This document shows positions 6,410 through 20,016 of a stretch of 31,842 nt of DNA, one piece after another (positions within the stretch are counted from its first letter, which is position 1; every line of letters begins with the position of its first letter). Both the position numbers and the translations under genes were made by a program. The notes beneath the pieces are model-generated. The model worked only from the letters and a program-made list of their open reading frames with translations, did no database searches and was not told the DNA's origin. Source of the DNA: a virus. Location: positions 1 to 31,842 of the IMG/VR virus record IMGVR_UViG_3300048930_000428. One strand, given 5' to 3'.

Positions 6410-7956
6410 GCGTCCGTCTCCTCGTCCTCATTGGCCGCGGTGCGCTCCGCCGCGCCCAACTGCCGGTTGAACGTGCCGGTGTCGCCGTCGGGGTAGAGCG
6501 CCGCCTGCCGTTCCGCCGCCTCCTCCTCTGCGGCTTCCACCTCGTCCGCCGGGTTTTCGACCAGGGACAGCAGGCGCAGCGCGGTCTCCCGCTGCAGCAG
6601 ACCGTTGAGCAGGGCCGTCTCGACCAACTTGCGCACCAACTCCCGGTCTTCGGCAATCGCCGCCGGCCATTTGGCCTTGAGTGCGCCGACGATCAGGCGG
6701 GGGTCGGTCAAGGCCCCCACCTGCAGCCGGATCTTGCACAGCCGCACCACCGCCCCGGCCACCTGCCGCTGCCACGCGCCGATGTCCTTCACAAACTGGA
6801 CCATCTGTGTGTCGGAGCTGGCGCGGGCGCTGGACAGTTCATTGCCCCAGATAAACTCGGGGATGCCCGTATGGTCGAGCAAGAGCAGGAAGAGCGTCTT
6901 CAGCGCCTGCTTGGTGTCCTCGGTAAAGCCCGTGGGCGGGGCCACGAATTTGGCGTCCCCGCCCTTGCCGATCAGCATCACCGCGTTGCTGTCCACGTTG
7001 AGCTGGGGCCGCTCCGCGATATTGCCGTCCTTGTCGGTGTACTCGTCCACCTGGGCCGGGTCGTTGGCGTTGATGACCTCGCTGATGTCTTCCATCCCCA
7101 CAAAGGCCAGGATGGGGTTGCCCAGGAGCTTCGCCCCGTCCAGCATCTTGAAGAGCACGTCGTCATACTGGTCATAGAGCGGCAGGAGCTGCTCGTGGAT
7201 GCTGTGCCCGTAGGTCTCATTGCCGGACATGCCGTAGGCGAAATGCACCACCGGGATGCGGCCAATCAGGTTCTGGTACTCGAAGCTCTCGGCGCGTTCG
7301 CCCTGCTTGATCGTCACCGTGCGCCCGTCGGCCCGGTATTCGTCCACGATGGCGTAGCCGTCCAGTTTGGTCGTCACCAGGACCGCCAGCATCCGGCGAT
7401 AGTCCAGCGGGTCGCGCTTGACCTCGACCGTGTCTGGGCTGGGCACGGAGAGCGTGCCGTCGGGGTTGACGATGACCCACTGGTCGCCCAGTCCCAGTGC
7501 GTCCCGATAGATGGACATGAGCAGGCTGGCGGTCGTATCCCGGTCCCAGTTCTCCTCGTCCTCGTCGGCGTCCAGCCCGGCGTCCAGCAGCCCCCGCACA
7601 AACTCGGTCAGGAAGTTATTGGTGTAGTCGCGCCGATCTTCGGGCAGTTCGTTGTCGTCGTCGCACAAGGCGATCTCGATGCCCTCGCCCAGCACCCAGG
7701 CGGCAATCACCCGTTCGATGCGGGTGGCAAAGAGCGCCCCCAGCTTGTAGCCGTCGGCCTTGCCCCGGCGCAGCCGGTCCCAGAACTCATAGTTCGGGAT
7801 CGTCTCGTCGATGGTCTTGGCGCGTGTGCGGGAGCGGTACAGGCCCATCTGGGCATCGCCGACCACATAGCGGCCAATCAGCTCGCGCACGGGCACCGTG
7901 GCCGCGGGGCGGCGCGTGGGGCGCACTTGGGCGCGATTCCTAGCGGCGACTGCCAT
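6406..7956 (-). CDS. Portal protein (SPP1 Gp6-like)
   Basis: The start is the ATG at 7956 behind CGGAGG, 17 bases inside the end of the TerL gene. The frame extends further upstream but without a ribosome-binding site. The 516-residue product matches SPP1 Gp6-like portals in length and pattern. It has an N-terminal YRSRTRAKTIDETIPN segment, an acidic insertion rich in DEDEEN, a VDEYRADGR beta-region and the late helix SSARASSDTQMVQFVKDIGA typical of the portal stem. The tail is very acidic and ends in NEDEETDA. The portal forms the ring through which the terminase pumps DNA. It belongs to the packaging module at 7.9-10.0 kb. Confidence 0.83.
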   Translation of the reverse strand: MAVAARNRAQVRPTRRPAATVPVRELIGRYVVGDAQMGLYRSRTRAKTIDETIPNYEFWDRLRRGKADGYKLGALFATRIERVIAAWVLGEGIEIALCDDDNELPEDRRDYTNNFLTEFVRGLLDAGLDADEDEENWDRDTTASLLMSIYRDALGLGDQWVIVNPDGTLSVPSPDTVEVKRDPLDYRRMLAVLVTTKLDGYAIVDEYRADGRTVTIKQGERAESFEYQNLIGRIPVVHFAYGMSGNETYGHSIHEQLLPLYDQYDDVLFKMLDGAKLLGNPILAFVGMEDISEVINANDPAQVDEYTDKDGNIAERPQLNVDSNAVMLIGKGGDAKFVAPPTGFTEDTKQALKTLFLLLLDHTGIPEFIWGNELSSARASSDTQMVQFVKDIGAWQRQVAGAVVRLCKIRLQVGALTDPRLIVGALKAKWPAAIAEDRELVRKLVETALLNGLLQRETALRLLSLVENPADEVEAAEEEAAERQAALYPDGDTGTFNRQLGAAERTAANEDEETDA

Positions 7957-9457
7957 AGAGTCCTCCGGTACGAGTCTTCTGAGCCGCCGGGCGCTGGGCG
8001 TTGGCCTGTTGGCGACTGCCGTAGAGAGAGGCGGCGCGCGGCGCAATCTGCACCGTGGACGCAGCCTGGAGTGACCGGGCAATATTCGCCAGCGCATAGC
8101 TGTCGGCGCGGTCGTCGTGTTCGCCGTCCGGGGCCAACAGCGTCGACCCCTCAATGCTCGCCAACTGGGTGTAGCCTGCGAAGCTGTGCAGGATCGTGTT
8201 GCCGTCCCGGAACGTCTCCGCCATGCTGTTGTAGAGCAATGTCTTGCCCAGCCGGTTGGACAACCAGCCCGGCTTGTCGTCGTCGCCCTTGAGCACGGTC
8301 AGCCGCGTGTGCTCCTCCCACCAGAGCAGCACCGCATGACCGTGGTTGTTGCGCTCCGACAGCAGCGCCGCATGGTTGTACCAGCGGCCCACCTGGTCGG
8401 CGTATTCGGCCAGCGTCGACGGCTCAAACTTGCCCGCCAGCGCCGCACACTCCTCGCCGGTGACGACATCCATCACACACAGGGCGCTGTCGTCGCTGGT
8501 CGGGTTGCCCTCTGCCGGGTCCGCCCCGATCACATAGCGGCGGCCTGGCTGGGGCAGCACATAGACCTCGAGACCGGGCAGCGCCGGGCCGGGGTGGCTG
8601 TCCAGCGGCTCCATCTCCACGTAGCATTGCTCGATCCATGGGGCGGGAATGCGCTTGTCCAGCGTGCGCGGGGCCAGGGCCTCCGTGTCGGTCGCCGGGT
8701 ATTCCTGGTGCAGATCGTCCAGCGCTCCGGTGCGCGCATACACGTCGGCTCGCTGCGCCACATAGAACGCCTCGTCGCGTTCGGGCCGGGCGTGCCAGGG
8801 CAGGAACACCGGCACCCATTCCGTATGGCCGCGCTTTGCCCCACGGTAGATGCGCTTGAACGGGCTTTGGGGCTTGCTCTTGTCGACCGTGGAAATCAGG
8901 ATGAGCTGCCCGCCCGCGTCCACGGTCGGCTTGACCGCATTCAGCAGGGCGTCCAGGTCCTGGATAAAATCGGCTTCGTCGACCAACACAATCGAGCCGG
9001 TGTAGGATCGCCCGCCCGTGGTCGGGAACGCCTTGGCGCTACTGCCGTTGGAGAGCGCCCAGGTATGCTTGTCGTCGGCCTGGATGGCCCGCGCCTGCAT
9101 CCAACTGGGCAGCCGCTGGTGGATGCCCTTGAGCCGGTTGTCGAGCAGCTCCACGGCCTCTTCGTCGCGCTTGGAGAAGATCAGAATGGTGGCCTCCTTG
9201 CGGAAGAGCATCTGCCAGAGCACATAGCAGAGCGTGAGCCACGACAGCCCCAACTGGCGCGCCTTGAGGATGATGAGCTGGTGGGTGTCCCGCAGCGTCT
9301 CCAGGGTCTCTACCTGGGCCGGCCATAGGGCAAAGGGCAGCCACTCGCGGGTGGTCGCGTTGTAGATCTGGACGTAGGTCTCGATCCAGTATTCAATCGA
9401 CTGGCTGCTTTTCAGCCATTCGATGTGTTCGCGCCGTTCTTCCGAGTTGCCAGCCAT
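7940..9457 (-). CDS. Terminase large subunit, second copy (TerL2)
   Basis: This 505-residue packaging ATPase/nuclease has a Walker A-like KARQLGLSW (65-73), Walker B SIVLVDEAD (D160, E161) and coupling motif LILIST (185-190). The nuclease domain begins at VIGADPAEG (D313) and has further acidic ligands near LLWWEEHT and DDRADSYALA. The gene overlaps the end of TerS2 by 46 bases and its own end overlaps the portal start, which is the classic packaging order. Sequence motifs differ clearly from TerL1 at 72-1535. Nothing indicates inactivation. Confidence 0.9.
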   Translation of the reverse strand: MAGNSEERREHIEWLKSSQSIEYWIETYVQIYNATTREWLPFALWPAQVETLETLRDTHQLIILKARQLGLSWLTLCYVLWQMLFRKEATILIFSKRDEEAVELLDNRLKGIHQRLPSWMQARAIQADDKHTWALSNGSSAKAFPTTGGRSYTGSIVLVDEADFIQDLDALLNAVKPTVDAGGQLILISTVDKSKPQSPFKRIYRGAKRGHTEWVPVFLPWHARPERDEAFYVAQRADVYARTGALDDLHQEYPATDTEALAPRTLDKRIPAPWIEQCYVEMEPLDSHPGPALPGLEVYVLPQPGRRYVIGADPAEGNPTSDDSALCVMDVVTGEECAALAGKFEPSTLAEYADQVGRWYNHAALLSERNNHGHAVLLWWEEHTRLTVLKGDDDKPGWLSNRLGKTLLYNSMAETFRDGNTILHSFAGYTQLASIEGSTLLAPDGEHDDRADSYALANIARSLQAASTVQIAPRAASLYGSRQQANAQRPAAQKTRTGGLYGSRR

Positions 9458-10002
9458 GCCTGTAGTTCTTGCTCCGCCTGCGCCAGTTCGTCGGCGCTCA
9501 GGTTCGGCACCTCGCGGTGCGTCACATCCAGTTTGTCGGACACCAATCCGTGATGCTTCGCCAGCAGCGCCTTGGCTGCGTAGGCGTCATACAGTTCCAC
9601 CTCGACCAAGGTCTCAGTGACTTCCGTCGGCGGCTCATCCTCATCGCCCGGCACCACCGTCTTGCGGGTCCGGGTCTTGAGCTTCTTGATGTGGTGCAGC
9701 TTTCTGGCCTGCTGCATGGCCTTGAAATCCCACTGCGGCGTGCCGTCGTCGGCAATCTGGAGATAGTCCCCCATGTCGCCGCGTGCCTGGTCGCTGATCC
9801 GCATCAACACTTCGTCCGCCGACATTGCCGTTGCCTGGAGTCGCTGCCGAATCGCTTCGGCGACCTCAGGTTTTCTCAGGGTCTCCCAGCCGGTCGAATA
9901 CGCGCTCCGTTCCGAGTAACCGGCGGCAATGGCCGCCTGCGTTGCGTTGTAGCTTTGGAGGTAGTGTTCGACAAACAACCTCTGTTTGGCTGATAGTCCC
10001 AC
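9412..10002 (-). CDS. Terminase small subunit, second copy (TerS2)
   Basis: This 196-residue Terminase_2-type small subunit opens MGLSAKQRLFVEHYLQ, followed by the helix-turn-helix NATQAAIAAGYSER. The middle has a basic helix (KLHHIKKLKTRTRK) and an acidic stretch (GDEDEPPTE). The C-terminal helix is LAQAEQELQAWLA. It binds the packaging initiation site and works with the overlapping TerL2. The body differs from TerS1 although the N-terminal pattern is shared. It follows the lysis genes directly. Confidence 0.86.
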   Translation of the reverse strand: MGLSAKQRLFVEHYLQSYNATQAAIAAGYSERSAYSTGWETLRKPEVAEAIRQRLQATAMSADEVLMRISDQARGDMGDYLQIADDGTPQWDFKAMQQARKLHHIKKLKTRTRKTVVPGDEDEPPTEVTETLVEVELYDAYAAKALLAKHHGLVSDKLDVTHREVPNLSADELAQAEQELQAWLATRKNGANTSNG

Positions 10003-16651: not shown

Positions 16652-17140
16652 TTAAGCCGCAACCTTTTGTAGCTTCTCGATGGCCCGATGCCGCCGGGCC
16701 TTAACGGTTTCCACGGAAACGTCCAGCGCCGCCGCCAGCGCGTCATACCGATAGCCGTCCACATACAAGGCGAGCACCTCGATCTGCTTGTCGGTCAGGT
16801 GCGCCCGCCGAATGGCAACCTGCGCGTCGATCTGCGCATGGGTGTCGTCGGCAAAGTCGCCGCAGGGCAGCGCATACTCCATTTCCTCCCAGTCGACATG
16901 CTGGGCTTTGCCCCGCGCCCGGTAGTGGTCGATCACCAGCCGCTGGGCCACGGTGTGCATGTAGGCGGCCCAGTTGCCGACCTCGACCTGGCGGTGCTCG
17001 GCATTGACCAACCGCACCCACACTTCCCCGGCCAGGTCGTCGGCCAGCTCCCAGTCGTTCACCTTGGAGGCGATCCAGGACCGCAGCTTGGCATGATGTT
17101 CGGCGAAGAGCCGCCGCCAGTTGACGGTGCGGTGGCTCAT
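16652..17140 (-). CDS. ECF-like RNA polymerase sigma factor
   Basis: The start is the ATG at 17140, overlapping the upstream stop (ATGA). The 162-residue protein has a sigma region 2 (about 15-80: LADDLAGEVWVRL and MHTVAQRLVIDHYRARG) and a region 4 helix-turn-helix (about 112-160: LTDKQIEVLALYVDGYRYDALAAALDV...ETVKARRHRAIEKL). Region 3 is absent, as in ECF sigma factors. It lies in the middle of the minus-strand operon, where a factor that switches on late phage genes would be expected. That target is inference. A helix-turn-helix protein with another role is less likely, since both sigma domains are present. Confidence 0.78.
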   Translation of the reverse strand: MSHRTVNWRRLFAEHHAKLRSWIASKVNDWELADDLAGEVWVRLVNAEHRQVEVGNWAAYMHTVAQRLVIDHYRARGKAQHVDWEEMEYALPCGDFADDTHAQIDAQVAIRRAHLTDKQIEVLALYVDGYRYDALAAALDVSVETVKARRHRAIEKLQKVAA

Positions 17141-17418
17141 GACCTGTCCATCCATTCGGGTTCGGTTAGCCGGTCGCCCAGCTCCGCTTCAATGTCCCAG
17201 ATGGCCTCCAGCTTGCGCCGGATGTCGAAGCGCAGCGCCTCAAGCTCTTCGGCGTTCGTGGTCGATTGCCTTTGGCTGCGCAGATGCCGCAGATCTTCGC
17301 GAAGCCCTTTGAGCTGTTCGTCTGGGTCTTCGCCGTGTTCTCTGATGTAGGCGGCGATGCACTTGTCCCGCTGCAGCAGCCGGTTCGCCTGCGGACTGCC
17401 AAAGATCAGGCGGCTCAC
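17137..17418 (-). CDS. Helical protein preceding the sigma factor (93 aa)
   Basis: The start is placed at a GTG at 17418 that overlaps the preceding stop (GTGA); the frame is open further upstream but inside the neighbouring gene. The 93-residue protein is strongly helical and charged (DPDEQLKGLREDLRHLRSQR, then EELEALRFDIRRKLEAIWDIEAELGDRL), suggesting a coiled coil. Its stop overlaps the sigma-factor start. It could be a partner of the sigma factor, such as an anti-sigma or assembly protein, but coupling is the only evidence. Confidence 0.6.
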   Translation of the reverse strand: MSRLIFGSPQANRLLQRDKCIAAYIREHGEDPDEQLKGLREDLRHLRSQRQSTTNAEELEALRFDIRRKLEAIWDIEAELGDRLTEPEWMDRS

Positions 17419-18261: not shown

Positions 18262-19077
18262 CTACGCCCCCACCATAAAGGGCCGCATGTCCGGCCCGGC
18301 CATCTCGAGCACCACGGCCCGCCCGTCGCGCAGGCGGGATGCCACCTTGTCCGGCAGGCTGTTGACCCGGCTGTTGGTGGCCAGCAGCGTCAGGCAGCTC
18401 TCCATCCGCCGCCAGCGTTCGTCGATCAGCCGCAGAAAGCGCTCCATGGCCCACGGGGTCGAATTGAACTCGTCCAGCTCGTCCAGCGCCAGCACATCGG
18501 CACGCACCAGTAGATCCCAGCGGTCGTCAAAGTCGAGGCCCTCCCGGTGCGGGTTGTAGGCCGCCTTGAGGTAGTCCAGCAGGTCGGTCACGGTGGTGTA
18601 AACCGCCGGCACACCTGCCTCCCGCGCCGCGTTGACCGCACAGATGAGCAGCGCCGACTTGCCAAGGCCCGGCTTGCCGGTGAGTGTCACCATCCCCCGC
18701 CGGGCCATCAGGTGCGCCGTCACCACGTCGATGGCCGGGCCATTGTTGCGGCGCTCCAGCACACCAAAGCGCAGGGCACGCTCCTGATCGGTCAAGCCGT
18801 CGATGCGCAGCAGATAAGACCGGCGGCGTTCGGCCTGGGCGTTCGCCTGACAGGTGCAGCGGATCGCCTTGCCGAAGTCGGGATGTCCCACCGGCACATC
18901 GGCCAAGACAAACCCCTGGTCGCCACAGCGGGCGCAGGCCACCTCAGTGACTCGCCGCGGCGGCACGTTCGGCGGCCTGACGTCGGAAGAACTCTCGGTA
19001 GTAGGCATCGTCTTCGGCGCTGACGGCGGATTCATCTGCCGGAGCAGGGTCCGGGTTGCTTCGCCAACGGTTTGCAT
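18262..19077 (-). CDS. DnaC/IstB-type AAA+ helicase loader
   Basis: The start is the ATG at 19077 behind GAAAGGATC; ATG codons at 19035 and nearby are alternatives. The 271-residue protein has an N-terminal cysteine cluster (C48, C51, C74, C76), as in phage and Firmicute helicase loaders. Walker A is GKPGLGKS (134-141), Walker B is VLALDE (195-200), and TLLATNSRVNSLPDKVASRLRDG forms the sensor and arginine-finger region. Such proteins place the host replicative helicase on the origin. It overlaps the upstream initiator gene by 134 bases, a layout typical of O/P-like replication pairs except for the size of the overlap. Confidence 0.85.
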   Translation of the reverse strand: MQTVGEATRTLLRQMNPPSAPKTMPTTESSSDVRPPNVPPRRVTEVACARCGDQGFVLADVPVGHPDFGKAIRCTCQANAQAERRRSYLLRIDGLTDQERALRFGVLERRNNGPAIDVVTAHLMARRGMVTLTGKPGLGKSALLICAVNAAREAGVPAVYTTVTDLLDYLKAAYNPHREGLDFDDRWDLLVRADVLALDELDEFNSTPWAMERFLRLIDERWRRMESCLTLLATNSRVNSLPDKVASRLRDGRAVVLEMAGPDMRPFMVGA

Positions 19078-19906
19078 GGGGTTGATCCTTTCGTTGATGC
19101 TTATTGGGGACACCGTCTCGATACCAGTCGAAGATCAGTTCCAGGTTGCGCCGGTTCTTAAACCCGGCCCGGTCATACGCCTCAATCACCTGCCGAAGCC
19201 GGTCCAGGTCGGGGCACCGGCGCACCAGGTCATCCTCCTGGGGAAAGGTCAGCTTCTCCTCGCGGCGCTGAATGTCAAATCGCTCGTAGTAGACCTCTAC
19301 CGCGGTTGCGCCGGTGCCCACCGGCACATAGCCGGTCTGGGGGTCGAAGTGGCGCTTGTTGATGTGCCGGGACTTGTGGACCATTGCCCCGTTCTGGCTC
19401 ACCCTTGATGGCAGCGCGACCAGAAGGTCATCCGGGACGGGCGGGGCAGCCGGAGCTGCCCTCTCTTCCCTTTTCGGTTCTGTTGTTGGTTCTAAAGGTT
19501 CAGATCGCGCGTGTGAGTAATTCGCGTCGGAAATGTCCGCTTTTCCGTCAAAAATGTCCGCTTTTCCATGCACAAAATGTCCGCTTTTTCCGTCAAAAAT
19601 GTCCGCTTTTTGTTCTTTGTTCACGGACAAAATGTCCGCTTTTTCGTCGGGGAACAGACGATAGTGGGGGCGCTTGCCGCGGCCGATGGCTCGCTCTTCA
19701 ATGGCGAGATAGCCCTCAGTCGCCAGGGCGTTGAGCACGCGCCGGATTTGGCGGTCGGTGAGGCGGCTTTTCTCCATAAGGATGGGCATCCCCGGCCAGC
19801 ACTCGCCTTTAGCGTCGGCGTGCTCTGCCAAGGCCAGCATGACCAGCAGCTTGCCGCCTTTGAGTTTGCTTTGCTGCCACACCCGATCCCGATATTCTTT
19901 ACTCAT
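18944..19906 (-). CDS. Replication initiator protein with winged-helix N-terminus (O/DnaD-like)
   Basis: The start is taken as the ATG at 19906 (MSKEYRDRVWQQSKLKGGK); the frame is open a little further. The 320-residue protein has an N-terminal winged helix (about 14-85: LLVMLALAEHA, LTDRQIRRVLNALATEGYL). A repeat-coded low-complexity stretch follows (about 88-130, several KADI motifs), then a helical C-terminal part (about 210-270) like the DnaD/loader-contact domain. It precedes and overlaps a helicase-loader gene. The repeat stretch coincides with iteron-like DNA repeats, as in lambda O, so the protein probably binds within its own gene. Confidence 0.75.
   Translation of the reverse strand: MSKEYRDRVWQQSKLKGGKLLVMLALAEHADAKGECWPGMPILMEKSRLTDRQIRRVLNALATEGYLAIEERAIGRGKRPHYRLFPDEKADILSVNKEQKADIFDGKSGHFVHGKADIFDGKADISDANYSHARSEPLEPTTEPKREERAAPAAPPVPDDLLVALPSRVSQNGAMVHKSRHINKRHFDPQTGYVPVGTGATAVEVYYERFDIQRREEKLTFPQEDDLVRRCPDLDRLRQVIEAYDRAGFKNRRNLELIFDWYRDGVPNKHQRKDQPHANRWRSNPDPAPADESAVSAEDDAYYREFFRRQAAERAAAASH
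19531..19644. repeat. Five iteron-like direct repeats, candidate replication origin
   Basis: The unit AAAATGTCCGCTTTT(T) occurs five times, beginning at 19531 (one A short), 19551, 19574, 19596 and 19629. The core TGTCCGC is invariant, and the steps are 21, 23, 22 and 33 bases. The last copy also forms an inverted repeat with an upstream CGGACA (19624-19638). The steps of 23 and 22 move the third copy out of the coding frame of the initiator gene. It therefore encodes KSGHF, whereas the in-frame copies encode KADI. The DNA, not the protein, is thus what is repeated. Iterons inside the initiator gene are known for lambda-type phage origins. Confidence 0.8.
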
Positions 19907-19932: not shown

Positions 19933-20016
19933 GGGGGTGGGTGTCAGTCCCCACCCCCATCCACTAGAGGTCTCGCCGCGGCCCGACCAGTCTGGGCCGG
20001 ATCTACCTGGTCGGGC
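19933..20016. promoter_or_regulatory. Structured leader upstream of the replication initiator
   Basis: The roughly 205-base gap between the initiator and the next upstream gene holds two strong inverted repeats. GGGGGTGGG/CCCACCCCC (19933-19941 and 19950-19958) has an 8-base loop. GCCCGACCAG/CTGGTCGGGC (19981-19990 and 20007-20016) is a perfect 10-base pair with a 16-base spacer. No T-run follows on the minus strand. They may be operator or RNA control elements for the initiator. The rest of the gap (20017-20111) shows no gene. Confidence 0.55.

Follow-up and report, generated by a model that had tools for sequence, protein, structure and literature searches.

The results described here point to a replication origin that lies inside the gene for its own initiator in an uncultivated phage. 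The window analysed, one linear IMG/VR record of 31,842 bases, contains five direct repeats within a gene for an HTH_36 replication initiator, and it is very likely, as far as sequence comparison can tell, that these are iterons for the initiator encoded there and that the core of the phage replication origin consists of them. The repeats themselves, their retention across reading frames and the co-variation between the recognition helix of the initiator and its sites are directly observed. The features concerned are as follows.

18262..19113, minus strand: DnaC/IstB-type AAA+ helicase loader (PF01695, E = 2.9e-8; PHROG 50 'DnaC-like helicase loader', E = 5.6e-23)
18944..19906, minus strand: replication initiator gene, 320 aa (PF13730, PHROG 391; the listed ORF runs from 19960)
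19715..19756, minus strand: recognition helix, residues 51-64 (helix in the AlphaFold2 model; D-R52-Q-I-R55-R56-V)
19514..19633, no strand: AT-richest 120 nt of the contig, candidate unwinding region (58% AT against a mean of 37%)
19530..19544, plus strand: iteron 1, GAAATGTCCGCTTTT, first base G; in frame, KADI
19551..19565, plus strand: iteron 2, AAAATGTCCGCTTTT; in frame, KADI
19574..19588, plus strand: iteron 3, AAAATGTCCGCTTTT; out of frame, reading K-S-G-H-F
19596..19610, plus strand: iteron 4, AAAATGTCCGCTTTT; in frame, KADI
19629..19643, plus strand: iteron 5, AAAATGTCCGCTTTT; in frame, KADI
19624..19638, no strand: palindrome CGGACAAAATGTCCG, CGGACA-AAA-TGTCCG, composed of iteron 5 and a mirror half-site

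The original prediction of a winged-helix initiator followed by a DnaC-type loader is borne out by the domain matches of both proteins. The initiator (E = 1.1e-9 and 38.3 bits against PF13730, above the curated cut-off of 25; E = 6.5e-14 against PHROG 391, 'replication initiation O-like') consists of an HTH_36 winged helix, a disordered linker coded by the iterons, and a helical C-terminal part. Because the alignments of its relatives begin at Met19 of the listed ORF, the likely start is at 19906 (320 aa) and not at 19960. AlphaFold2 gives a confident winged helix for residues 1-90 (pLDDT >90 over residues 1-70, 86-88 over 71-90), predicts the iteron-coded linker to be disordered (pLDDT about 41-59) between more ordered parts, and predicts the C-terminal helices weakly. 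The family profile of the initiator domain matches the DnaD structure 2vn2 (E = 3.7e-4), and Foldseek places the domain near DnaD (2v79) and the Rep/initiator structures 4pt7, 4pql, and 5kbj at weak E values of 1e-3 to 8e-3, the match of the initiator to DnaD_N (E = 0.0015) being under the curated cut-off. Domain searches up to E = 10 returned just PF13730 and the weak DnaD_N, with no match to Phage_rep_O or to RepA_N (PF06970), and the full initiator used as a single query against IMG/VR gave no close relative. The loader gene lies directly downstream and overlaps the 3' end of the initiator gene; the loader matched IstB/AAA and the DnaC-like PHROG 50 alone, and not the lambda P family. The overlap between the loader ORF and the initiator gene (18944-19113, minus strand) amounts to up to 170 nt in a different frame, the loader start being uncertain, with internal ATGs at about 19077 and 19005.

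The five iterons, (A/G)AAATGTCCGCTTTT, span 19530-19643 in a single (plus) orientation, antisense to the initiator gene, with start-to-start steps of 21, 23, 22, and 33. With a tolerance of three mismatches, a search of the 31.8-kb contig retrieves these five and nothing else, whereas dinucleotide shuffles (n = 100) gave a mean of 0.26 matches and a maximum of 2, and 0/100 reached five. The presence of five copies inside the initiator gene, as originally predicted, is thus well above the expectation from shuffling; as copies of one unit they need a qualification, in that iteron 1, with its first base G, is not an exact copy of the 15-mer, and the predicted span of 18944-19644 contains the array but also covers the rest of the gene. 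The third copy had been described as lying out of the coding frame, at steps of 23 and 22, and the mirror half-site had been placed at 19624-19638; both descriptions are accurate, and the palindrome is perfect. The AT-richest 120 nt of the contig falls on the iteron array itself, not beside it. The GC skew of the contig, which showed no clear origin sign at the array and is confounded by the coding strand, was set aside because its sign follows that strand. The iteron array as a blastn query against phages retrieved nothing beyond one chance match of 23 nt.

The location of an origin inside the initiator gene is an arrangement already known. In lambda O/P, the iterons likewise lie within the initiator gene and the initiator is followed by the loader, and in the Stx-phage variants of this system the initiator binds its own iterons (PMC7466680). 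In the present phage, however, no Phage_rep_O domain was detected, the loader is a DnaC/IstB AAA+ protein and not P, the 15-nt sites are mostly without dyad, and the AT-richness lies within the array. The lambda-like character originally assigned to the locus therefore holds for the mode of working and not for kinship: the proposed function is supported at the level of sequence, and the kinship is corrected to an HTH_36/DnaD-like initiator with a DnaC-type loader. The initiator is not a homologue of lambda O, and the nearest systems in logic are the RepA_N and pPR9 plasmids. RepA_N plasmids such as pSK41 share with it a DnaD-like N-terminal DNA-binding domain and have their origin within rep past this domain, where the candidate origin of the phage also lies, the linker of the pSK41 Rep being dispensable (PMC5703833); they differ in that the phage initiator is without PF06970 and the phage has its own DnaC-type loader. 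In pPR9, a PF13730 domain and the origin have replaced the RepA_N module as one unit, and a mini-replicon replicates (PMC5703833). The pPR9 Rep joins a PF13730 N-terminus to a pSK41 C-terminus; its likeness to the phage initiator lies in the N-terminal domain and the position of the in-gene sites. The HTH_36 (PF13730) O-like phage initiators of PHROG 391 and its relatives share with the present one the domain, the place of the iterons past the HTH, and the mixed-frame copies.

These precedents bear on the strongest of the alternative explanations, namely that the sites bind the initiator but act chiefly as an operator or incompatibility element in autorepression or copy control, and that the origin is elsewhere. 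Autoregulation is common among initiators, in-gene sites could block transcription into the loader, and the GC skew bears no origin mark at the array; on the other hand, the sites are located 260-370 nt within the gene and not at a promoter, no stretch of the contig is richer in AT than the array, and in the nearest systems studied by experiment sites placed in this way inside the gene act as ori (PMC5703833). On balance, we regard a mainly regulatory role as improbable.

Whether the repeats are kept as DNA or as protein was judged from the reading frames, both here and among relatives. Iterons 1, 2, 4, and 5 share one frame, and their K-A-D-I is always coded by AAA GCG GAC ATT; given the codon usage of the window, three further KADI copies would use exactly this set of codons with a probability of 1.9e-6, although a recent duplication of the unit would also yield the same pattern. 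The relatives were collected by protein alone via HTH-domain alignments, drawn from the best 80 per search among >400 HTH_36 matches in IMG/VR, with a few motif-found extras tracked separately; redundancy was lowered to <65% or <80% HTH identity, related sequences still being non-independent. When the stretch past the HTH-coding part was searched with a mismatch-tolerant finder and compared with 20 codon shuffles, repeats exceeded all 20 shuffles in 133/152 non-redundant initiator genes among the matches listed. Comparable in-gene repeats just past the HTH-coding part were present in 124 of the 139 protein-found genes among the matches listed (a count that takes in L202, added by hand), so that relatives keeping the protein without the repeats are a minority (15/139). 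Of the 114 genes with three or more copies on one strand, 100 had them spread over two or more reading frames. From these counts, DNA-kept in-gene iterons are concluded to be the rule in this family, which lends strong independent support to the retention at the DNA level that had been read from the off-frame iteron 3.

It is therefore very improbable that the DNA repeats are a by-product of selection for a KADI protein linker or of recent tandem duplication, an explanation that is already largely refuted. It draws on the presence of KADI in 4/5 copies and on the 25 identical nt common to iterons 2 and 4; it conflicts with the other frame of iteron 3, the mixed frames of the relatives' genes, the predicted disorder of the linker, and the occurrence of the same word in the divergent initiators L006 and L202, where it is also predicted by the helix. 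Among 95 contigs, arrays of step-11 and step-12 tandem repeats and several others were rejected as non-initiators; they are either simple tandem repeats or genes of unrelated kinds. An HTH_36-like initiator with in-gene repeats was also seen, together with an annotated RepA, on the Corynebacterium mustelae plasmid pCmus45274 (L283), which is perhaps a phage-plasmid.

Strong independent support for the prediction that the repeats are the initiator's own sites comes from the co-variation of the iteron sequence with the recognition helix. With the conserved Arg of the helix taken as r7, the third residue after it as r10, and the next as r11 (R52, R55, and R56 in the present initiator), the code reads as follows: R-x-x-R-R goes with TGTCC, R-x-x-Q-R with TGTCA, and K at r11 with TTCA/TTCC. 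The present phage has R-x-x-R-R with TGTCC, as the code predicts. RR helices were associated with GTCC and Q helices were not (10/12 versus 2/47, p = 6e-8), the two RR exceptions being those without Arg at r7; in protein-found genes with Arg at r7, R7..R10R11 was accompanied by GTCC in 5/5 versus 2/47 others (p = 8e-6). In the called, protein-found cases, Q at r10 corresponded to A in 14/15 and R at r10 to C, that is, to G on the opposite strand, in 9/9, while R at r11 corresponded to GTC in 12/12 and K or another residue to TTC in 11/12. Combined, the r10 and r11 rules, which were framed after the data had been seen, hold in 46/48 checks, with 0/20,000 permutations as good; a callable [GT]TC[AC] core was present in 28 of the 54 R7 initiators, the other 26/54 being without one. 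Motif-free counts over the linker regions agree, with TGTCA 37 versus TGTCC 5 for Q-type helices and 4 versus 27 for R-type helices.

The combination of the iteron word TGTCC with the helix DRQIRR is rare among HTH_36 initiators. Besides the present phage, the RQ[IV]RR initiators among the matches listed are L006, with AAATGTCCGC, and L202, the array of which contains GGACAAAATGTCC, the same as the palindrome of the present phage; L202 came from protein searches alone, L006 first from the motif and later again from a protein search. A scan for further RQ[IV]RR initiators mostly returned these two again. Two RR helices were examined prospectively, of which L374 fits the code and L370, with weak repeats, does not. 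Further departures are L199 (VRHVRR), in which TGTCC is absent, against the code; L305 (ERQVQR), with Q at r10 and five sites reading TGTCG, not TGTCA, an unexplained exception; and L212, with Q at r10 and TTCC. In L287 (TRHVTR), for which the transposase rule described below predicts TGTCT, neither TGTCT nor clear repeats were found. A pair of similar initiators, L203 (PRAVQK, with CGGGGTTTC) and L205 (PRAVRK, with CAGGGTTTC), differs by one residue and one base. In the open-access literature searched, no description of a helix-iteron code in HTH_36 initiators came up.

The same word leads to a second group of proteins. Doubled at 24-25 nt, AAATGTCCGCTTTT occurs in 38 bacterial loci, many of them at contig edges and ISNCY ends among them; the transposase ORFs found in the fetched paired-word loci are ISNCY-like, the family being confirmed for L007. 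The ISNCY transposases beside AAATGTCCGCTTTT ends with a readable helix all have xRQ[IV]RR (6/6; motif-selected, with L086 being a viral contig). As these six loci were selected by motif, further ISNCY elements were collected through the similarity of their proteins to shTnsB, and among them the helix RQVQR (Pantoea, Klebsiella) is accompanied by two TGTCA sites 24 nt apart and the helix RQITR (Acinetobacter) by two TGTCT sites 24 nt apart. The change of Q to A followed the initiator rule, whereas that of T to T was unpredicted. In the IS1202 family, the transposase is TnsB-like and has a second site, an internal one, close to either end (PMC10132070). Two arginines of the shTnsB helix S-L-R77-T-V-Q80-R81, R77 and R81, make base contacts in the solved structure with DNA (PMC9527255). 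In our alignment, R77, Q80, and R81 of shTnsB stand opposite r7, r10, and r11 of the initiator (R52, R55, and R56), and we infer that r10 contacts a base.

The initiators and the ISNCY/IS1202 and TnsB proteins are thus alike in the xRQ[IV]RR helix paired with AAATGTCCGCTTTT and in the r10 rule by which R, Q, and T go with C, A, and T. They differ in that the transposases have two N-terminal HTH domains and a DDE core, and the likeness is not a family relation. An ISNCY transposase as a single-sequence query had no PDB match, an ISNCY HTH alignment as the query matched TnsB, and the initiator HTH matched the ISNCY model weakly (E = 0.017, under the cut-off). The similarity of the two HTH domains may reflect convergence or distant kinship, and the helix and site in common may be convergent. 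We consider it rather probable that the r7/r10/r11 code is common to HTH_36 initiators and TnsB-like transposases, and that the initiator genes, each with both a DNA-binding domain and its own target sites, amount to a natural, self-annotated library of specificities from which origins are predictable.

The identity of the word with that at ISNCY/IS1202 ends, the presence of ISNCY ends among the 38 paired-word loci, and the weak HTH match just mentioned would also suit an array that is the relic or decoy of such an insertion sequence. This we hold to be highly improbable: no transposase gene or remnant was noticed in the window, the array has five copies at steps of 21-33 nt versus a pair of sites 24-25 nt apart at each of the inverted ends, the gene is open, the arrangement is a family rule with many other words, and helix and site co-vary in initiators with unrelated words. 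Spacing, copy number, and the open gene led us to reject an insertion sequence as the source of the array. A partition (centromere-like) site or host-factor binding array is just as improbable, since, although parS and host-protein arrays also have direct repeats spaced by about two helical turns, the proteins examined showed no par gene and the word follows the recognition helix of the initiator itself.

For the preferred reading, that of iterons forming the core of an origin, the simplest mechanism is the following. The DnaD-like winged helix would dock on TGTCC through its recognition helix (R52-Q-I-R55-R56), which would enter the major groove, R55 reading the G opposite the last C of TGTCC and R56 the G of TGTC. 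The initiators would gather on sites about two helical turns apart, within the most AT-rich stretch of the genome, and would open the duplex in this AT-rich array; the opened duplex would then be passed to the DnaC-type loader, the product of the next gene downstream. Any sequence that the DNA sites impose would be tolerated by the linker that the iterons encode, which is predicted to be disordered. We infer physical binding, unwinding, loader recruitment, and use as the actual origin.

Elsewhere in the contig, two complete terminase pairs are present within 31.8 kb (72-2068 and 7940-10002, minus strand).

72-1535 (large) and 1532-2068 (small), minus strand: terminase pair 1, small subunit matching PHROG 51
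7940-9457 (large) and 9412-10002 (small), minus strand: terminase pair 2, small subunit matching PHROG 51

The presence of both pairs could reflect a true duplication, a chimera made in assembly, or two prophages lying side by side. A phage-borne sigma factor (Sigma70 r2 and r4, PHROG 1740) is encoded near the replication module at 16652-17155, minus strand.

As a probable origin, the array described here adds a clean uncultivated example of an origin inside the initiator gene. More generally, it belongs to a large phage family in which the gene itself shows the DNA word that is read, and in which two or three residues of the helix predict that word, and the code connects phage initiators with the TnsB-type recognition of transposon ends. 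Of all the results, this base-level rule of initiators and transposases most deserves to be followed up, and it is of wider use than the origin itself. If it is true, the mutation R55Q would move the preference of the present initiator from TGTCC to TGTCA, and for many uncultivated phages both the origin and the specificity of the initiator could be read from sequence.
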